A DNA stretch of 64,000 nt. Origin: Peptococcaceae bacterium BICA1-7. Its GTDB lineage: Bacteria > Bacillota > Desulfotomaculia > Desulfotomaculales > Desulfocucumaceae. This document shows, piece by piece, positions 38,469 to 49,108 of this stretch (positions within the stretch are counted from its first letter, which is position 1; each line of letters starts with the position of its first letter). Under the pieces are notes generated by a model. It did no database searches. It had not been told where the DNA came from and saw only the letters and a list, made by a program, of their open reading frames with translations. A program made the translations under genes and the position numbers. The stretch spans positions 62,001 through 126,000 of the forward strand of contig JUEB01000011.1 of NCBI GenBank assembly GCA_000802095.1. The letters are read 5' to 3'.

Positions 38469-39686
38469 TTATGAAAATAAGTTGAATTTCATTTTTTCTT
38501 TATCCATAGAAATCTCAAGATCTTTTATCTTTTCTCCCTTATCCAGAACTACTGCTGCGGGTATATCCTTTATATGATATTTCTTCGCAAGTGTCTTTTT
38601 GGTAGCTGTATCAACTCTTATAATTTCATACCTATCAGAGCATTCGCTAACGATTTCTTCCAACATTGCACCATATTGTAGACTCTCACTGACTGATGCA
38701 TTAAAAAATAGGAGTAAAACTTTTTTATCACTTTTAAGAACCTTGGCGTTAAAGTTTTCTATTTCTTCAATGTATCTTTCGGCTGCCACAGCTGCAGCGG
38801 CGCCATCTCCGGCTGCAGATACTACTTGTCTTAAATATTTAACTCTATTGTCACCTACTGCATAAACACCTTCAATGTTTGTTTCCATCAGGTCATTAAC
38901 CGGGATATATCCTTTTTGATCAATTTCCAGTCCACTATCTCTGAGAAAACTGGTTGATGGTATCATCCCCACAAAGAAAAACACACCTTGGCAATCTAGT
39001 ATTGAAGATGATCCTGTTTTTATATTCTTTAGTTTAACACCCTCAACATTTTCTTCCCCTAAAACCTCTTCAACAGTTGAATTCCAAATAAATTCCATTT
39101 TCTTATTATTGAAAGCTCTTTCAGCACTTGCTTTATTGCAATCCAGAACTCCCTCATCATGCAAAACTATCACTGTGACTTTGCGAGCAAACTTAGTAAT
39201 ATACATACCTTCTTCTATTGCCTGGTCACCACTTCCGACTACAACTACATCTTCCCCTTCAAAAAAATCTGCATCACAAGTAGCACAATATGCCACTCCC
39301 ATACCCCTAAGTCTTTTTTCACCAGGAATATTTAGCAGCCTTGGCTCACTACCACAGGCAATAATGACGGCTTTAGCGGATACTTGTTTTCCTTTTCTGG
39401 TAGTTAATGTTTTTAGAACTTGGTTATAGTCAACACTTATTACTTCGTCCTTTAAAAACTCTACACCAACATTCTCGGCATGCTTTTTGAAATCCTTCAT
39501 AAGATCTGGGCCGCTTACTTTTAAATATCCGGGATAATTAACAATTTCCCTGGTGGCATTAACTAAGCCGCCTACAGCACCCTTATTGATAATTAGTGTT
39601 TTAAGTTTGGCCCTGCCACCATAAATAGCAGCAGAAAGACCTGCAGGTCCACCACCGATTATTAATAAATCATAGCAGTTTTCCAT
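38469..39686 (-). CDS. Thioredoxin reductase with C-terminal thioredoxin-like domain lacking CxxC
   Basis: Residues 1 to about 310 form a complete thioredoxin reductase: FAD motif IIGGGPAGLSAA, redox pair CATC, NAD(P)H motif VVVGSGDQAIEEG, and AVGDNRVKYLRQVVSAAGDG. About 95 further residues look like a thioredoxin fold (KVLLLFFNAS, IIRVDTATKKTLAKKYHIKDIPAAVVL) but carry Ser where the CxxC should be, so this domain cannot do dithiol exchange and may dock a partner. The gene is clearly AT-rich compared with its neighbours. Next on the strand before it is a thioredoxin gene. Confidence 0.9.
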   Translation of the reverse strand: MENCYDLLIIGGGPAGLSAAIYGGRAKLKTLIINKGAVGGLVNATREIVNYPGYLKVSGPDLMKDFKKHAENVGVEFLKDEVISVDYNQVLKTLTTRKGKQVSAKAVIIACGSEPRLLNIPGEKRLRGMGVAYCATCDADFFEGEDVVVVGSGDQAIEEGMYITKFARKVTVIVLHDEGVLDCNKASAERAFNNKKMEFIWNSTVEEVLGEENVEGVKLKNIKTGSSSILDCQGVFFFVGMIPSTSFLRDSGLEIDQKGYIPVNDLMETNIEGVYAVGDNRVKYLRQVVSAAGDGAAAAVAAERYIEEIENFNAKVLKSDKKVLLLFFNASVSESLQYGAMLEEIVSECSDRYEIIRVDTATKKTLAKKYHIKDIPAAVVLDKGEKIKDLEISMDKEKMKFNLFS

Positions 39687-39711
39687 TATTTCACCTTTCC
39701 TTTATAATAGC

Positions 39712-40035
39712 TCAATCAAGAGTATTGGAAATCTTTTCCTCTACTTGTTCATCTTCAACTTTGCCAGACAATTTCCCCTGATACTCACCATTCTTAAAAA
39801 ATATAATTTGGGGGACACCTTTAAAAGAGAACCTTTGAAACAAAGTTTTCTGTTCTTCTATATCAACACGATAGAAACCAAATTTACCATGGTATTTATA
39901 CTCTAATTCTTCTAAAACAGGAACTACTTCCTGACATACGTGACAGCTCTTTCTTGAGAAAACAACCAGGCAAGCCTCACCATTATCATAAATAATCTCT
40001 TCAAAGCTATCATCATCTAATTGATGCAGAGGCAT
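39712..40035 (-). CDS. Thioredoxin-like protein with CHVC site
   Basis: A 107-residue thioredoxin fold with active site SCHVCQ in place of the usual WCGPC, and the cis-Pro in KGVPQIIFF. GAGGGAG 8 bases ahead favours the ATG at 40035 over 40077. With the reductase gene 25 bases downstream it forms a two-gene operon, so it is probably the dedicated substrate of that enzyme. AT-rich like its partner. Confidence 0.85.
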   Translation of the reverse strand: MPLHQLDDDSFEEIIYDNGEACLVVFSRKSCHVCQEVVPVLEELEYKYHGKFGFYRVDIEEQKTLFQRFSFKGVPQIIFFKNGEYQGKLSGKVEDEQVEEKISNTLD

Positions 40036-40085
40036 TTTATACACTCCCTCTATGATCATTTTTGTAAAAACCGGCATTAAATGAA

Positions 40086-42289: not shown

Positions 42290-42505
42290 GGATTGACCAC
42301 GCCAGTACCACCACCACGGAGCCGCCAGGAATGCGAAGGGAGACAGTGCAGAAGCCGGTAAAGATAAACCGGGCTTGCCCGAGCCGACCACCACGGTTAA
42401 CAGCCATTATAATATGAAAGGGGACACACCAAACAAGGAATGGGGACACACCTGCTGAAGTTTGGGAATTCCTTTGGGGACAGGAATGTCCCCGATTGAT
42501 AGACA
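42290..42505. repeat. GC-rich spacer with GGGGACA repeats
   Basis: GGGGACACACC occurs twice (ending near 42430 and 42451), followed by GGGGACAGGAATGTCCCC, a short hairpin near 42475-42492. The stretch is non-coding and more GC-rich than its AT-rich flanks. It resembles extragenic palindromes moved by small REP-type transposases; no transposase is nearby. Confidence 0.4.
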
Positions 42506-42555
42506 AAAAGTCTATTGACTAAATCATTTATAATTTGTTAACATAGTAAAAAGTT

Positions 42556-42576
42556 AGTTATAATTTAGTATTAACT
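42556..42576. promoter_or_regulatory. Putative ROK operator 2
   Basis: A 21-bp imperfect palindrome starting AGTTATAATT and ending AGTATTAACT, 73 bases before the glcD-like start and downstream of a TTGACT element at 42515. Confidence 0.6.
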
Positions 42577-42649: not shown

Positions 42650-44071
42650 ATGGTAACGAAACGGTGGTTATTGATGAACGCATTGGCGAAAGATTTAAAC
42701 ACATTAATATCTTCAAACCGGGTTAGGACCGACCCGGAAGACTTGTTCGCATACTCAAACGATGCGACATTTTATTTCAAAAAGAGCATGCCCGATGCCG
42801 TTGTGCTGCCGGAAAGCTCCGAAGAGGTGGCCCACATATTAAAATATGCCTTTCACCGGGAAATTCCGGTAACCCCCAGGGGGGCTGGAAGCGGACTTTC
42901 AGGCGGCTGTACTCCGGTGCATGGCGGAATTGTAATAGATATGAAAAGGATGAGAAGAGTTCTTGAGTTAGATCGTAGCAATATGACCTCAGAGGTTGAA
43001 GCAGGGGTGGTATTGTCCAATTTTCACCGGACAGTGGAAAAGATGGGGCTTTTTTACCCTCCGGATCCCCAAAGCATGAGCGTGTGTACCATCGGAGGCA
43101 ATGTTGCTACCAGGGCCGGGGGACCCCGGGGGGTTAAATACGGGACCACTGAAAGGTACGTTCTCGGCCTTGAGGCTGTCCTTTCAGACGGATCGATAAT
43201 CAAATGCGGCAGTAAGAGTGTAAAAAATTCAGCAGGTTATGATATTACACACCTTATGACCGGGTCAGAAGGAACACTTGGGGTAATCACCAAAGCCACG
43301 CTAAGGCTCCTTTCCCTTCCGGCTGCCCGCAAGACTATGGTGGTAATCTGTGAAACAACGGATCAGGCAGCCGCCATAATATCTGAAATAATAGCCAGGG
43401 GGATGGTTCCGGCTGTGCTGGAATTCCTTCAGAGAGGGGCGGTAGGTTTAATGAATTACTACATATCCCCTCCTCTGGTTGCTGACGCGGAAGCATACCT
43501 GTTATTGCAGGTCGATGGGACAGCGGCCCAGGTGGAAGCGGAATCCGCCGGAATAAAGGATTTTTGCCTGCAGATGAAGGTCAGGGATGTACGTATAATA
43601 GAGGACGAAAGAGAGGCCGGGAGTTACTGGGAGGCCCGTTCCGCACTGCACCCGCTCATTATGAGGGTTTTCAAGAGAATCATCACTGAAGATGTTTCCG
43701 TGCCGAGAAACCTGTTACCCGAAATGGTCGGAAGCCTTACTGAATTATCCGCAGCATTGGGTATAAATATTGGATTTTCAGGACATGCCGGTGATGGTAA
43801 TGTTCATCCTTCTATACTGTTTGCGGAAGTAAGCCCGGAGATGGAGGAGAAGGCAAAGGCGGCGGTGGACTTGATAATTAAAAAAGCAATTGATTTGGGA
43901 GGAACGATTTCGGGTGAGCACGGCATTGGCATACACAAATCAGAATACCTGCCCTGGCAATTGGGGGATGTACAAATTGATTTAATGAAGAGGATAAAAA
44001 ACTCTTTTGATCCGAAAAACATAATGAATCCAGGTAAAATTTGGCCAGAGGGTGATGAGTTAAGGCAATGA
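42650..44071 (+). CDS. FAD-linked 2-hydroxyacid oxidase (GlcD family)
   Basis: A flavoprotein of the glycolate/D-lactate dehydrogenase family that oxidises a 2-hydroxy acid to the 2-keto acid. The FAD domain shows PESSEEVAHIL and PRGAGSGLSGG, with a C-terminal FAD-oxidase domain carrying GHAGDGNVHPS and SGEHGIG. The start is uncertain: neither ATG 42650 nor the in-frame ATG at 42674 has a strong ribosome-binding site. The stop overlaps the next start as ATGA. Its electrons probably pass to the GlcF-like partner. The substrate is inferred only by context. Confidence 0.9.
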   Translation: MVTKRWLLMNALAKDLNTLISSNRVRTDPEDLFAYSNDATFYFKKSMPDAVVLPESSEEVAHILKYAFHREIPVTPRGAGSGLSGGCTPVHGGIVIDMKRMRRVLELDRSNMTSEVEAGVVLSNFHRTVEKMGLFYPPDPQSMSVCTIGGNVATRAGGPRGVKYGTTERYVLGLEAVLSDGSIIKCGSKSVKNSAGYDITHLMTGSEGTLGVITKATLRLLSLPAARKTMVVICETTDQAAAIISEIIARGMVPAVLEFLQRGAVGLMNYYISPPLVADAEAYLLLQVDGTAAQVEAESAGIKDFCLQMKVRDVRIIEDEREAGSYWEARSALHPLIMRVFKRIITEDVSVPRNLLPEMVGSLTELSAALGINIGFSGHAGDGNVHPSILFAEVSPEMEEKAKAAVDLIIKKAIDLGGTISGEHGIGIHKSEYLPWQLGDVQIDLMKRIKNSFDPKNIMNPGKIWPEGDELRQ

Positions 44072-45270
44072 GATTAGAAAATTACGCAGAAGCTCTTGAG
44101 AAATGCTCCCACTGCGGTTTTTGCCAGGCGACCTGCCCTGTATACCTGGAGGACCTTCTGGAGACCCACCTGACACGCTCCCGCATCAACCTGATCAGGA
44201 GCGCCCTGATTGATAAATCATTGCCGGTTACCCGCCGGGTAAAGGAAATTATAAATCGCTGCCTGCTTTGCACCAACTGCACCCATACCTGCCCCGGCGG
44301 ATTGCCCTGTGATGAAATAATTGCCGCCGCCAGAGCGGAATTGGGTGGAAAATCAGGCAGTGCAGGGGCCGTAAAAAAATTTATTTTACGCAGGGTTTTA
44401 AACAAAAGAGGTCTGGCTGGAATAATGAGCAGGGTCGGGTCTACGATTCAGAAATTAAACATTGTCAAGGCCGAGGTTCCTACCCTGGCCGCAAAACCCT
44501 TCGACAGTATATACAGTGGAACTATTTCCCCAAAAGGAAAGATACGGTCACGGGTAGCTTATTTTGTGGGATGCGCCTCCAACTATATTTACCCTGATAC
44601 CGGTGAAGCCGTTGTTAAGGTGTTGGTCCACAATGGCGTTGAGGTTATTATCCCGCAGGGACAAGTATGCTGCGGTTTGCCTGCTATGGCCGAAGGAGAC
44701 CTGGAAACGGCAAGGAATTCGGTAAGCGTCAATATGAAAATTTTGGCGGGAATGCAGGTCGACGCCATTGTCACCGACTGCACGTCATGCGGTATGATGC
44801 TCAAGGTAAAGGCGGCGAAGGTGTTGCCGGGGGACGACCCTCTGCAGAATCAGGTCAAGGCAGTGTCGGAAAAAATATGGGAAGCTGCAGATTATCTCAA
44901 CACCCTGGGATTACAGGACCAGCCGGGGCCTCTAAATGAAAGGTACACTTATCATGTGCCCTGCCACCGGGCCTGGGCGCCGACAATTGTGGATTCACCC
45001 CGTCACCTGCTGTCAGCGGTTTCAGGGTCTGAGCTGGTGGAAATGGAGAATCCCGGAAAGTGCTGCGGCGCAGGAGGTAGTTTTTTTATGGAAAACCGCC
45101 AGCTCTCTGAGAGGATACGCTCTCACAAACTGGAGGATATAGCGGCAACCGGTGCCGGTACTGTGATAACCCAGTGCCCGTCATGCCGTTTTTACCTGGG
45201 TGTAAAGTTGAAGGACAGGAAAGTAATGCACCCTCTATTTTTTTTGGCAAAGTCTTACGGTCTTGTTTAA
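44068..45270 (+). CDS. GlcF-like iron-sulfur subunit
   Basis: An electron-transfer partner of GlcD-type oxidases. Two 4Fe-4S motifs (CSHCGFCQATCP and CLLCTNCTHTCP) lie in the first 80 residues. Two CCG domains follow, with CCGLPAMAEGD and CCGAGGSFF plus CTSCGMML and CPSCRFYL. CCG proteins hold non-cubane clusters and occur in heterodisulfide reductase-like complexes. Length 400. Translational coupling to the flavoprotein (4-base overlap) supports a 1:1 complex. The acceptor may be menaquinone or another Fe-S protein. Confidence 0.9.
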   Translation: MRLENYAEALEKCSHCGFCQATCPVYLEDLLETHLTRSRINLIRSALIDKSLPVTRRVKEIINRCLLCTNCTHTCPGGLPCDEIIAAARAELGGKSGSAGAVKKFILRRVLNKRGLAGIMSRVGSTIQKLNIVKAEVPTLAAKPFDSIYSGTISPKGKIRSRVAYFVGCASNYIYPDTGEAVVKVLVHNGVEVIIPQGQVCCGLPAMAEGDLETARNSVSVNMKILAGMQVDAIVTDCTSCGMMLKVKAAKVLPGDDPLQNQVKAVSEKIWEAADYLNTLGLQDQPGPLNERYTYHVPCHRAWAPTIVDSPRHLLSAVSGSELVEMENPGKCCGAGGSFFMENRQLSERIRSHKLEDIAATGAGTVITQCPSCRFYLGVKLKDRKVMHPLFFLAKSYGLV

Positions 45271-45340
45271 GAATATGTCAGCCCGGCAAACTTATTGAAC
45301 AATCAGTTAGGGAGTGAGACACAAGAGGAGGGATACTACA

Positions 45341-46453
45341 GTGAATCAGGCAGTAAAAGGTCCCGGGGATCTGATAAGGGAAGTATTGGAACAAAACCAG
45401 TGCACAGTTTGCGGCTTATGCGTCGGTATGTGCCCTTACATCAAGACTGTAAGCCAAAAGGTTGCCATAATCCATTCCTGCGGTTTAAAGGAGGGCAATT
45501 GCTACAAGGCCTGTCCCCGCACCGGGATAAATCTTCCGGAATTGGACGATATGGTCTTCGGGCAGGAAAGAAAGGATCAGGCGCTGGGATTTAACCGGGG
45601 TATTTATTTCGCCAGGGCAACCGACACGGCAATCACCCAGGCGGCACAGTATGGAGGAGTAACCACCGCCCTGATGGCCTTTGCAGTCGACCAGGGTATG
45701 GTAAGCGGCGCCGCCCTGTCCGGAGGGACTTCCCTGAGCCCCAGGCCGGTAATAGCTAGAACAGCAAGGGAAGTAATATCGTGCGCAGGCTCAAAGTATA
45801 CCGCAGTCCCTACCCTGACAGCCCTGAACAAGGCGGTTGGTGAGGGACTTCAGTGCGTTGGCGTGGTGGGCAGACCCTGCCAGATTGCGGCGGTAAGGAA
45901 AGGGCAGGCGCTAAGCCGGACAGATCCAAGTGCCAGAATACCGGCCTCTAGAGCAGGCCTGGTTATCGGCCTGTTCTGCTTCTGGTCCCTAGGGTTCGAC
46001 TTTTACCGCTACCTGGAGGAAAAGGCCGGAGGAGATGAAATAGTCAAGGTGGACATCCCCGTAGAAGGGCTGGCTGTAACCACTGCAAAAGGGACCGGGG
46101 TCTGGCCGGTGGACGAAATCAGGCCATACATAAGAGAGGTCTGCAACACCTGTGCAGACTGTACGTCAGAGTGGGCCGACGTATCGGTGGGATCTACAGA
46201 ATACGACCCGGCCTGGAACACCCTGGTTGTCAGGAGCGATGCAGGCCAGTCGTTGGTGAATAGGGCACTGGAAAAGGCAGTCATTGAAATTAAGCCTTAT
46301 CCGGAGGAAAGGCTTAAAATCCTCAGGAAGGCTGCCCTGAATAAAAAAATGAGAGTACTGCAAAACCTTGATCGGCCCGGGCCGGAATACCTTACGGTAC
46401 CCGCTGAATACCTCAGTGAGATAAAACAACAGTGGGAGGAATTGCAGTCATGA
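45341..46453 (+). CDS. FrhB/FdhB-like flavin iron-sulfur protein
   Basis: A member of the coenzyme F420 hydrogenase/dehydrogenase beta-subunit family. Fe-S ligands are CTVCGLCVGMCP, CYKACP and CNTCADC. The central flavin domain has GRPCQIAAVRK. These proteins move electrons between ferredoxin-type clusters and flavin or F420; in Firmicutes the partner is usually ferredoxin or NAD. GAGGAGGG 8-9 bases before the GTG at 45341 makes that start better than the in-frame GTG at 45314. The stop overlaps iorA as ATGA. Confidence 0.85.
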   Translation: MNQAVKGPGDLIREVLEQNQCTVCGLCVGMCPYIKTVSQKVAIIHSCGLKEGNCYKACPRTGINLPELDDMVFGQERKDQALGFNRGIYFARATDTAITQAAQYGGVTTALMAFAVDQGMVSGAALSGGTSLSPRPVIARTAREVISCAGSKYTAVPTLTALNKAVGEGLQCVGVVGRPCQIAAVRKGQALSRTDPSARIPASRAGLVIGLFCFWSLGFDFYRYLEEKAGGDEIVKVDIPVEGLAVTTAKGTGVWPVDEIRPYIREVCNTCADCTSEWADVSVGSTEYDPAWNTLVVRSDAGQSLVNRALEKAVIEIKPYPEERLKILRKAALNKKMRVLQNLDRPGPEYLTVPAEYLSEIKQQWEELQS

Positions 46454-48372
46454 GTATTTTTGGAGTAGGACTGGATCAACCCGGCCGCAGCGTGTTGCTG
46501 ACCGGGAACGAAGCGGTGGCCAGGGGCGCCATCGAGGCCGGAGTAGCCTTTGCAGCATGTTATCCCGGCTCACCCACGGCCGAGGTGCTGCCCACTTTGG
46601 CTCAATTGGGGGAGAAATTCAACATATATACTGAATTCAGCACCAACGAAAAAGTGGCCATAGAGGCTGCTGCGGCAGCCTCTTTCGCGGGATTAAGGTC
46701 ACTTACCATCTGTAAGGTTGACGGATTCAATGTTGCCCTGGATTTTGCCACAGCCATCAGCCTTTCCGGCAACAAAGGCGGCATGGTTATTATGGTTGGG
46801 GACGACCCCAACGCGCACTCCAGTATTAAGGAGGAGGATTGCCGGTTCCTGGCCAGGACGGCCAGCCTGCCGCTGCTGGAACCTGCGACGGTCATGGAGG
46901 CCAAGGAAATAACCAAATTCGCCTTTGAATTGTCAGAGAAAATAATGCTGCCGGTGGTAGTACGCTGCACCACCAGGATTTGCCATGCCAGCGGGGATGT
47001 TAAGCTGGGTGAACTGCCCACAGCAGAAAAAAAGGCGAGCCTGACAAGGGATCAAAAATTCGTCACCACCCCCCTTTTTAGTCAATTCATGAAAAGCAAG
47101 ATCAAAAACGCCGCAGACATGGCCGAATGTTCTCCCTTCAACTATTATACCGGACCGGAGAATGCCGAAAAGATAGTGATAGCCTGCGGGCCAAGTTACA
47201 ATTACGCTCTGGAGGCTGTTGAAATACTGGGCCTGAAGGATAGCGTGGGTGTCCTGAAAATATCTACCACCTGGCCTCTCCCGGAGAATTTAATTTTGAG
47301 GTACCTAAAGTCAGCCCGGGAAGTGGTTTTTGTCGAGGAGATTGACTCTTTTCTGGAGGACGGGGTGATGACCCTTGCTGCCAAATATTGGGATGAGGTC
47401 GGCAAGGTTAAATTTTATGGCAAGAATTCGGGACACGTGGCCAGTCCCAAGGGACCATTTGCAGGGGAGCTGGACCCGGACGTGGTGACCGGCTGCCTGG
47501 GAAAAATATTCAATGCACACTATGAATCTCCGGGCCTGCCTAATATCAAAGAGGCCAGGGATCTTCTAAACAATAACCTGCCTGGCAGGGAACTGGCACT
47601 TTGTGCTGGCTGTCCCCACCGGGCGTCCTACTGGGCCATAAAGACTGCGGTGGAGTTGGACGGCCGCAACGCCATAGTGCTGGGCGACATCGGCTGCTAC
47701 AGCCTTGGGCTGGTACGCACAGGTTATAGCCTCCTTCAGAGTGTGCACTGCATGGGTGCAGGTATTGGCATAGCCAGTGGTCTGGGCAAGCTGGACCGTT
47801 TTCAGTTTAAACAGCCGGTAATTGCCGTGCTGGGGGATTCTACCTTCTACCATGCTGCCCCCCAGGCGCTAATCAACGCACGCTACAACCAGTCCAGTAT
47901 GCTCTGTATCATATTGGACAACGAGACCACCGCTATGACCGGCCACCAACCACATCCCGGACGGGGCATAAGCGCTACAGGGCAACCCCTGGGCAAAGTA
48001 GAAATTGAGGCTATCCTGGCCGGTATGGGGATACCCGTAACGGTGCATGACCCATACGATGTGGAGGGAACTACCGAGGTTGTCTACAAGATATTACAGG
48101 AAACCGGCCCCCGGGCTTTGGTGCTCAGAAGGGCTTGTGCGCTGATGGCCGTAAAGGGCAGAAAGAAGAATCGTGTGTACGTGGATCAGGACAAGTGCAT
48201 TGGTGATGACTGCGGCTGCGCCAGATTCTGCAGCCGGGTCTTCGCCTGCCCGGCCAACATCTGGGATGCGCAGCGGGGTAGAGCCAGCATTGACGAGGCG
48301 GTCTGCAACGGCTGCGGCGTATGCGCCAGCCTCTGCCCGCAGCAGGCTATCGTCGTAGAAAGGACGGTATGA
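46450..48372 (+). CDS. iorA: Indolepyruvate ferredoxin oxidoreductase alpha subunit-like
   Basis: The thiamine-diphosphate subunit of an oxidoreductase that decarboxylates a 2-keto acid to acyl-CoA while reducing ferredoxin. The N-terminal domain has LLTGNEAVARGA and CYPGSPTAEV. The ThDP site is LGDIGCYSLG, GDSTFYHAAP, DNETTAMTGHQPHPG. The C-terminal ferredoxin domain is atypical: CIGDDCGCARFC comes first, then a regular CNGCGVCASLCP. The ATG at 46450 overlaps the previous gene by 4 bases. Known enzymes act on aryl pyruvates, but this family is broad and the true substrate may be different. Confidence 0.9.
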   Translation: MSIFGVGLDQPGRSVLLTGNEAVARGAIEAGVAFAACYPGSPTAEVLPTLAQLGEKFNIYTEFSTNEKVAIEAAAAASFAGLRSLTICKVDGFNVALDFATAISLSGNKGGMVIMVGDDPNAHSSIKEEDCRFLARTASLPLLEPATVMEAKEITKFAFELSEKIMLPVVVRCTTRICHASGDVKLGELPTAEKKASLTRDQKFVTTPLFSQFMKSKIKNAADMAECSPFNYYTGPENAEKIVIACGPSYNYALEAVEILGLKDSVGVLKISTTWPLPENLILRYLKSAREVVFVEEIDSFLEDGVMTLAAKYWDEVGKVKFYGKNSGHVASPKGPFAGELDPDVVTGCLGKIFNAHYESPGLPNIKEARDLLNNNLPGRELALCAGCPHRASYWAIKTAVELDGRNAIVLGDIGCYSLGLVRTGYSLLQSVHCMGAGIGIASGLGKLDRFQFKQPVIAVLGDSTFYHAAPQALINARYNQSSMLCIILDNETTAMTGHQPHPGRGISATGQPLGKVEIEAILAGMGIPVTVHDPYDVEGTTEVVYKILQETGPRALVLRRACALMAVKGRKKNRVYVDQDKCIGDDCGCARFCSRVFACPANIWDAQRGRASIDEAVCNGCGVCASLCPQQAIVVERTV

Positions 48373-48989
48373 GTAACATGTTTGTATTATTTAAGCCCCT
48401 TAATGTTATCGTAACCGGAGTGGGCGGCCAGGGCAATGTGCTGGCCTCCCAGGTTTTAGCTGCTGCGGCCATAGAGGCGGGTTACCGGGTGTCCGTGGGG
48501 GAAACCTTTGGGGCCTCCCAGAGAGGAGGGTCTGTGATGAGTCACGTTCGCATCAGCCGGGACAGGACCTGCGGTCCCCTAATCCCCAAAGGCGGAGCAC
48601 ACCTGATCGTAGGCTTCGAGCCCCTGGAAACACTGCGTATACTTATGGATTACGGCAATCCGGAAACTGTGGTGGTGATGAACGACCGTCCCAACTATCC
48701 CATCGGATGCCTTTTAGGTGAGGAAAAGTACCCGGAGCCGGATTTGATTATTAAGGCAATCAACAAGCTCGTTGTCAAAATCCACGTTCTGCCGGCCACC
48801 GATTTGGCCAGGGAGGCCGGCAATGCCATGGCCGCCAATATGGTGCTCACCGGCGCGCTGTCCGGGTGCAGCCTCCTGCCCTTTGACAGCCGCTTCTTCA
48901 CCGGGGTTATAGATACTCTATTTAGCGGTGATGTGCGGGCTCTCAATATGAAGGCCTTTGAAAAGGGTAGGGAAACAGTGCAAGGTTAA
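48369..48989 (+). CDS. iorB: Indolepyruvate ferredoxin oxidoreductase beta subunit-like
   Basis: The gamma-type subunit that pairs with IorA. VTGVGGQGNVLASQVLAAAA near the start and GETFGASQRGGSVMSHVRIS are the family motifs. The ATG at 48369 overlaps the iorA stop as ATGA; the longer frame from 48321 is antisense-free but unsupported. Last gene of the coupled cluster, followed by a strong terminator. Confidence 0.92.
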   Translation: MSNMFVLFKPLNVIVTGVGGQGNVLASQVLAAAAIEAGYRVSVGETFGASQRGGSVMSHVRISRDRTCGPLIPKGGAHLIVGFEPLETLRILMDYGNPETVVVMNDRPNYPIGCLLGEEKYPEPDLIIKAINKLVVKIHVLPATDLAREAGNAMAANMVLTGALSGCSLLPFDSRFFTGVIDTLFSGDVRALNMKAFEKGRETVQG

Positions 48990-49031
48990 AAAAAATAAGC
49001 CCGTATCCCTTGATACGGGCTTATTTTTTTT
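48987..49031. terminator. Strong bidirectional terminator
   Basis: AATAAGCCCGTATC pairs with GATACGGGCTTATT around a short loop, with an A-run before and a T-run after. It ends the iorB transcript and lies past the MFS gene stop. Confidence 0.92.
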
Positions 49032-49108
49032 ACAAAATCACTTCTGTTATCTTTTTACGCAACTCCCCATCCAGTTCCAGACCCACGTGGTTATCCGCCT
49101 TTTTCAAA

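Follow-up and report, generated by a model that had tools for sequence, protein, structure and literature searches.

The luo operon of Desulfovibrio vulgaris (DVU3025-3033) joins GlcD/GlcF-type D-lactate dehydrogenase and LUD-type L-lactate dehydrogenase genes with a 2-oxoacid:ferredoxin oxidoreductase in one operon, and its products co-migrate in native gels (PMC4481167). In Candidatus Ethanoperedens thermophilum, F420-reductase subunits wire carbon monoxide dehydrogenase (8RIU, subunit zeta) and formylmethanofuran dehydrogenase (8RJA, FwdI) directly to coenzyme F420 (PMC11493965). Here we describe a five-gene locus, glcD-glcF-frhB-iorA-iorB, that resembles both systems. It lies in a 64,000-nucleotide stretch (the window; contig JUEB01000011.1, positions 62,001 to 126,000, forward strand) of Peptococcaceae bacterium BICA1-7 (Desulfotomaculales), hereafter the host. 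We consider it probable that the five genes form a catabolic module, which takes a lactate-like 2-hydroxyacid to an acyl-CoA and uses FrhB as the flavin electron outlet of IorAB.

The luo operon is the nearest known analogue of the module. As in luo, lactate-dehydrogenase-type genes and a 2-oxoacid oxidoreductase stand in one cluster. Luo, however, encodes a pyruvate:ferredoxin oxidoreductase (PFOR), a lactate permease, pta and ackA, whereas the window module has IorAB instead of PFOR, plus FrhB. Lactate permease, pta and ackA are not in the window operon: a terminator follows iorB, and the operon is flanked by genes for a phosphodiesterase-family protein and an MFS transporter. The Ethanoperedens subunits are equal in length to the window FrhB and likewise combine a two-cluster ferredoxin domain with an FrhB domain that holds flavin adenine dinucleotide (FAD), mounted on a low-potential, CO2-releasing oxidoreductase. 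The differences are that the partner of the window FrhB is a 2-oxoacid oxidoreductase, that the host has no detectable CofD and that residues R178, T286-E287 and Y104 deviate. Indolepyruvate:ferredoxin oxidoreductase IorAB likewise consists of two subunits, with matching domains, but the window pair scores below both equivalog cut-offs, and its IorA is 37% identical to that of a separate IorAB in the host. Finally, the bifurcating lactate dehydrogenase LctBCD of Acetobacterium woodii (7qh2) shares the GlcD-type flavoprotein. The A. woodii enzyme has EtfAB and no GlcF, while the window operon has GlcF and no EtfAB.

An initial annotation, made from the letters of the window without database searches, knew of no standard operon composed in exactly this way. 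As far as we found, this is literally right, yet luo comes close. In the mostly open-access literature that we covered, we found no published description of a module of frhB-iorAB and a hydroxyacid dehydrogenase.

The features of the locus are as follows (window coordinates):

42535..42564, + strand: sigma-70-like promoter candidate TTGTTA-18-TATAAT, 10/12 matches in a consensus scan, a candidate by sequence only
42674..44071, + strand: glcD-like FAD-linked 2-hydroxyacid dehydrogenase subunit, 465 aa (PF01565 and PF02913; LctD 7qh2_C; cassette-linked GlcD clade)
44068..45270, + strand: glcF-like iron-sulfur subunit, 400 aa (Fer4_8, two CCG domains; two [4Fe-4S] motifs)
45341..46453, + strand: frhB-like flavin/iron-sulfur electron-transfer subunit, 370 aa (PF04422/PF04432; N-terminal ferredoxin-like domain and FrhB domain)
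46450..48372, + strand: iorA-like large subunit of a 2-oxoacid:acceptor oxidoreductase that binds thiamine diphosphate (ThDP), 640 aa (TIGR03336; C-terminal ferredoxin domain)
48369..48989, + strand: iorB-like small subunit, 206 aa (PF01558)
48994..49032, + strand: intrinsic terminator read from the sequence, 14-bp stem AATAAGCCCGTATC/GATACGGGCTTATT, 4-nt loop and T run

All five open reading frames (ORFs) stand where the initial annotation had placed them, and Pfam returns the families it had named: FAD_binding_4 with FAD-oxidase_C, Fer4 with two CCG domains, FrhB_FdhB_N/C, POR_N/TPP_C/Fer4, and POR. The GlcD translation carries GEHG and HAGDGN motifs. Its FAD_binding_4 and FAD-oxidase_C subunit adjoins the subunit with Fer4 and two CCG domains, the arrangement of a GlcD-GlcF pair. 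All scores nevertheless fall below the NCBIfam equivalog cut-offs: 437 of 568 bits for GlcD (glcD), 154 of 333 for GlcF, 157 of 332 for FrhB (TIGR03289, frhB), 559 of 651 for IorA (TIGR03336, IOR alpha) and 161 of 206 for IorB (TIGR03334, IOR beta). Hence the five names are valid at the family level only, and substrate names cannot be transferred. With both IorA and IorB under their equivalog scores, we reject the identity of a canonical indolepyruvate:ferredoxin oxidoreductase. The candidate substrates lactate, phenyllactate, indolelactate and 2-hydroxyglutarate were proposed initially; with GlcD at 437 of 568 bits, none of them gains support over the others.

Judged from gene neighbourhoods, frhB-iorA-iorB is the conserved, solid unit of the five genes. 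This cassette occurs in dozens of genomes of Desulfotomaculales, Desulfosporosinus, Pelotomaculum and Syntrophomonas. FrhB has a match in 64 of 150 relatives, and behind the close matches (43-72% identity) IorA and IorB nearly always follow. A further scan yielded 68 loci, from Bacillota through Rokubacteria, deltaproteobacterial metagenome-assembled genomes (MAGs) and Poribacteria. Where an FrhB ORF was called (69 loci), 58 loci also have IorA and 54 have IorB; several of the missing genes are explained by contig ends or ORF-calling losses. The host itself has a second cassette (G000:C33:510008-513600, L035; FrhB 58%, IorA 74% and IorB 73% identity), which lacks GlcDF and adjoins a gene of the U32 peptidase family and one for a GGDEF protein. 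A third, separate IorAB, with the 37% identical IorA, lacks an FrhB and lies near a phenylacetate-CoA-ligase-like gene. Two oddities appear among the cassettes. In the Peptococcaceae MAG BRH_c4a, two contigs carry the cassette with its neighbours in near-identical form (L078, L080), either a duplication or an assembly artefact. In two Pelotomaculum MAGs (L106, L119) IorA is broken into two ORFs, by either a frameshift or a sequencing error.

GlcDF adjoins this cassette in 15 genomes, 13 found by script plus Ammonifex L053 (G010) and L143 of G065. We thus reject the view that the linkage is an accident of the window alone. The dehydrogenase genes lie upstream of the cassette in the window and in three Syntrophomonadaceae loci (L124, L125, L128), and downstream in Desulfosporosinus, Desulfallas, Ammonifex and Syntrophomonas. 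In Ammonifex the order is LdhH-LUD-FrhB-IorA-IorB-GlcD-GlcF; the G065 contig starts inside IorA and continues with IorB-LdhH-LUD-GlcD-GlcF. With five GlcD-like loci in the 4.75-Mb host genome, a GlcD is expected within 8 kb of about 2% of randomly chosen positions, compared to about a fifth of the cassette loci, although the 2% is only a rough yardstick for loci that are related to each other.

Other hydroxyacid dehydrogenases take part as well. LUD-domain dehydrogenases related to LdhH/LutB adjoin the cassette in L075, L077, L084, L086, L088, L093, L124, L125, L128, L134, L143 and L053; all those that were scored fall under the lactate equivalog cut-offs. In L088 (7927-10071) LUD, Fer4 and FrhB are even fused in a single 715-aa ORF. 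The cluster around this fusion also holds an enoyl-CoA hydratase, a BKACE and an NMO-family protein. Taken together, the 15 GlcDF genomes in either gene order, the single GlcD clade described below, the LUD replacements and the fusion place the coupling of hydroxyacid dehydrogenase and 2-oxoacid oxidoreductase genes, as first proposed in the initial annotation, beyond chance. Independent occurrence of the two parts in all relatives, which that annotation had named as counter-evidence, is not what we find, yet frhB-iorAB stands without GlcDF in most loci.

In the GlcD tree, the 15 linked GlcDs and one unlinked GlcD from a 5.2-kb contig (G015) form a single clade with support 100/100. The remaining sampled GlcDs fall outside it, including three host paralogues, and a search of 398 genomes of the phylum added no clade member that reached E 1e-137. 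The IorA tree looks different: the GlcDF label requires four changes. The sister of the window IorA is L075 (83% identity), where LdhH-LutC replaces GlcDF. The window GlcD is closest to Syntrophomonadaceae (67%) and the window IorA to a Peptococcaceae MAG. Because the two trees are in conflict, we reject the inheritance of all five genes as one operon unit; the GlcDF-cassette pairing came together more than once. The recurrent joining of differing hydroxyacid dehydrogenases to one cassette is the strongest argument for function. Comparative genomics supports the coupling, since dehydrogenases join repeatedly, the linked GlcDs are one clade and L075 carries LdhH-LutC in the place of GlcDF.

The second part of our reading concerns FrhB. 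Among solved structures, its sequence matches 8riu_B (E 3e-78) and 8rja_E best, both over the full length. An AlphaFold model (predicted local distance difference test, pLDDT, 88.6) superimposes on them with template modelling (TM) scores of 0.86 and 0.81. FrhB has the N and C domains and the FAD/[4Fe-4S] fold of F420 reductases, and cysteines are conserved in both the two-cluster N-terminal domain and the FrhB domain. A built-in FrhB outlet would have its precedent in the Ethanoperedens structures.

The acceptor, however, is probably not F420. In an alignment comparison, the window FrhB has R178, T286-E287 and Y104 where F420 users have L/T/I, x-G and D/N, respectively. The conservation of these sites is taken from an unbiased 30-sequence alignment; over the named loci, the conservation of R178 and T286-E287 is biased, since these loci were fetched by motifs that include the residues. 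CofD has no match in the host genome, and none over the cut-off in the 150 relatives or in 15 Bacillota module genomes. Among 19 other module genomes tested, only two Rokubacteria have a CofD over the cut-off. CofH has no match over the cut-off in the host. As CofD is not found and the conserved sites differ from those of F420 users, FrhB probably reduces something other than F420. With CofD absent and CofH under the cut-off, the two F420-pathway proteins covered by the search, we reject F420 as acceptor in the host, and these sequence comparisons make such a role unlikely.

We propose that GlcDF would oxidize a lactate-like 2-hydroxyacid to the 2-oxoacid, and that IorAB would oxidatively decarboxylate the latter to acyl-CoA and CO2. 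Electrons would pass from the ThDP centre to the ferredoxin domain of IorA, from there to the two N-terminal [4Fe-4S] clusters of FrhB and on to the FrhB FAD, presumably within a physical complex. From the FAD they would leave to an acceptor other than F420, for which nicotinamide adenine dinucleotide (phosphate), NAD(P)+, is our first guess. Recycling of ferredoxin by FrhB, as suggested initially, is possible; nothing specific supports it.

We infer the direction and the substrate class from the neighbours of the cassettes: LUD genes, a LarA-family isomerase, an IlvD-type dehydratase and an ADP-forming acyl-CoA synthetase adjoin them, which favours catabolism of a lactate-like acid to acyl-CoA. 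The LarA-family nickel-pincer isomerase and the IlvD-type dehydratase stand together at L077. Enzymes of the IorAB superfamily are reversible, so the module could also run in the synthetic direction, from acyl-CoA by reductive carboxylation to a 2-oxoacid and then a 2-hydroxyacid. Alternatively, IorAB could work in amino-acid turnover unrelated to GlcDF, which fits the many cassettes that lack a hydroxyacid dehydrogenase and stand beside PFOR or other genes. The acyl-CoA synthetase in front of FrhB (L048/L086 and L052/L133) and the AdhE, dehydratase and TRAP transport genes near cassettes in relatives suggest catabolism instead, and we regard both of these options together as very improbable.

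GlcDF and IorAB might also be two independent enzymes. GlcDF would then deliver electrons to menaquinone or another carrier, IorAB would reduce ferredoxin and FrhB would be a mere ferredoxin-linked reductase. The genes would be neighbours because they share a substrate and product, as in luo, where GlcDF, LUD-type lactate dehydrogenase and PFOR genes are placed in one transcript. The host CofH-like matches are compatible with the futalosine pathway to menaquinone, and DsrA is present (590 bits), which makes sulfate or sulfite reduction a likely sink. Against this, FrhB stands directly before IorA in nearly every locus, often overlapping it, and contains a two-cluster ferredoxin domain of its own. 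This arrangement suggests that FrhB is wired directly to IorAB. The LUD-FrhB fusion argues in the same direction. We therefore find two separate enzymes rather unlikely.

The fusion in L088, together with LUD-Fer4 dehydrogenase domains that adjoin FrhB in L053, L077 and L094, indicates that both electron sources may meet at FrhB. One of these loci is unusual: in L094 (Desulfallas sp. Bu1-1) FrhB is followed by the LUD protein without IorAB, beside an HpaB-type (4-hydroxybutyryl-CoA dehydratase-like) gene. By textbook values, electrons from IorAB have a potential of about -500 mV and those from the hydroxyacid dehydrogenase of about -190 mV. By confurcation, FrhB could combine the two and pass them to NAD(P)+, driving the unfavourable step from hydroxyacid to NAD. 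The closest solved chain to GlcD would suit such a scheme: 7qh2_C, the LctD of lactate dehydrogenase (NAD+, ferredoxin), with E 6e-97. But there is no Etf domain among the scanned operon and flanking proteins, FrhB has a single FAD and the solved structures related to it simply conduct electrons. We know of no bifurcating FrhB. Confurcation is thus unlikely in our view, and its full form, in which FrhB is an F420-independent flavin hub that confurcates electrons of the hydroxyacid dehydrogenase and the 2-oxoacid oxidoreductase to NAD(P)+, is more doubtful still.

Several points weigh against the catabolic module with FrhB as outlet of IorAB. Most frhB-iorAB loci have no adjoining GlcDF or LUD dehydrogenase and about 20 have one; hence the cassette can act without a hydroxyacid dehydrogenase. 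The pairing was put together repeatedly and not passed down as a single unit. An NAD(P)-binding domain is not recognisable in FrhB, and the search for the F420 pathway covered CofD and CofH alone. Lastly, the 70-bp gap between glcF and frhB leaves room for separate control of glcDF and frhB-iorAB.

This gap, which the initial annotation did not mention, depends on the start of frhB, most likely the GTG at 45341 with AGGAGG in front. The ORF of GlcD opens at 42650, and 42674 is the better start. The three overlaps of the initial annotation agree with the sequence, and each is a four-base ATGA: glcF starts at 44068 and glcD stops at 44071, iorA starts at 46450 and frhB stops at 46453, and iorB starts at 48369 and iorA stops at 48372. 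A scan of the 70-bp gap found no promoter- or terminator-like site. Directly 3' of iorB follows a hairpin with a perfect 14-bp stem and a T run, and the genes on either side, which belong to the type I phosphodiesterase family and to the MFS transporters, are on the opposite strand. A single five-gene transcript is plausible, given the promoter-like site upstream, the terminator hairpin after iorB and the lack of such sites in the gap.

Upstream of glcD, at window 42476-42493, lies the perfect palindrome GGGGACAGGAATGTCCCC, close to more copies of GGGGACA; it could represent an operator or a short repeat element. Further away, at window 38469-40077, is a thioredoxin reductase-like protein that carries a thioredoxin domain at its C-terminus, adjoining a separate thioredoxin gene.

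The fate of hydroxyacid electrons in sulfate-reducing and syntrophic Bacillota has long been an energetic puzzle, for which the module offers a defined, testable unit. If confurcation were true, it would represent an Etf-free strategy for lactate-type oxidation and give bacterial members of the FrhB family a new role. The module seems to put a flavoprotein of the F420 type at the service of a 2-oxoacid oxidoreductase where F420 itself is lacking. If so, many genes that such bacteria carry under the label 'coenzyme F420 hydrogenase beta subunit' would be misnamed.

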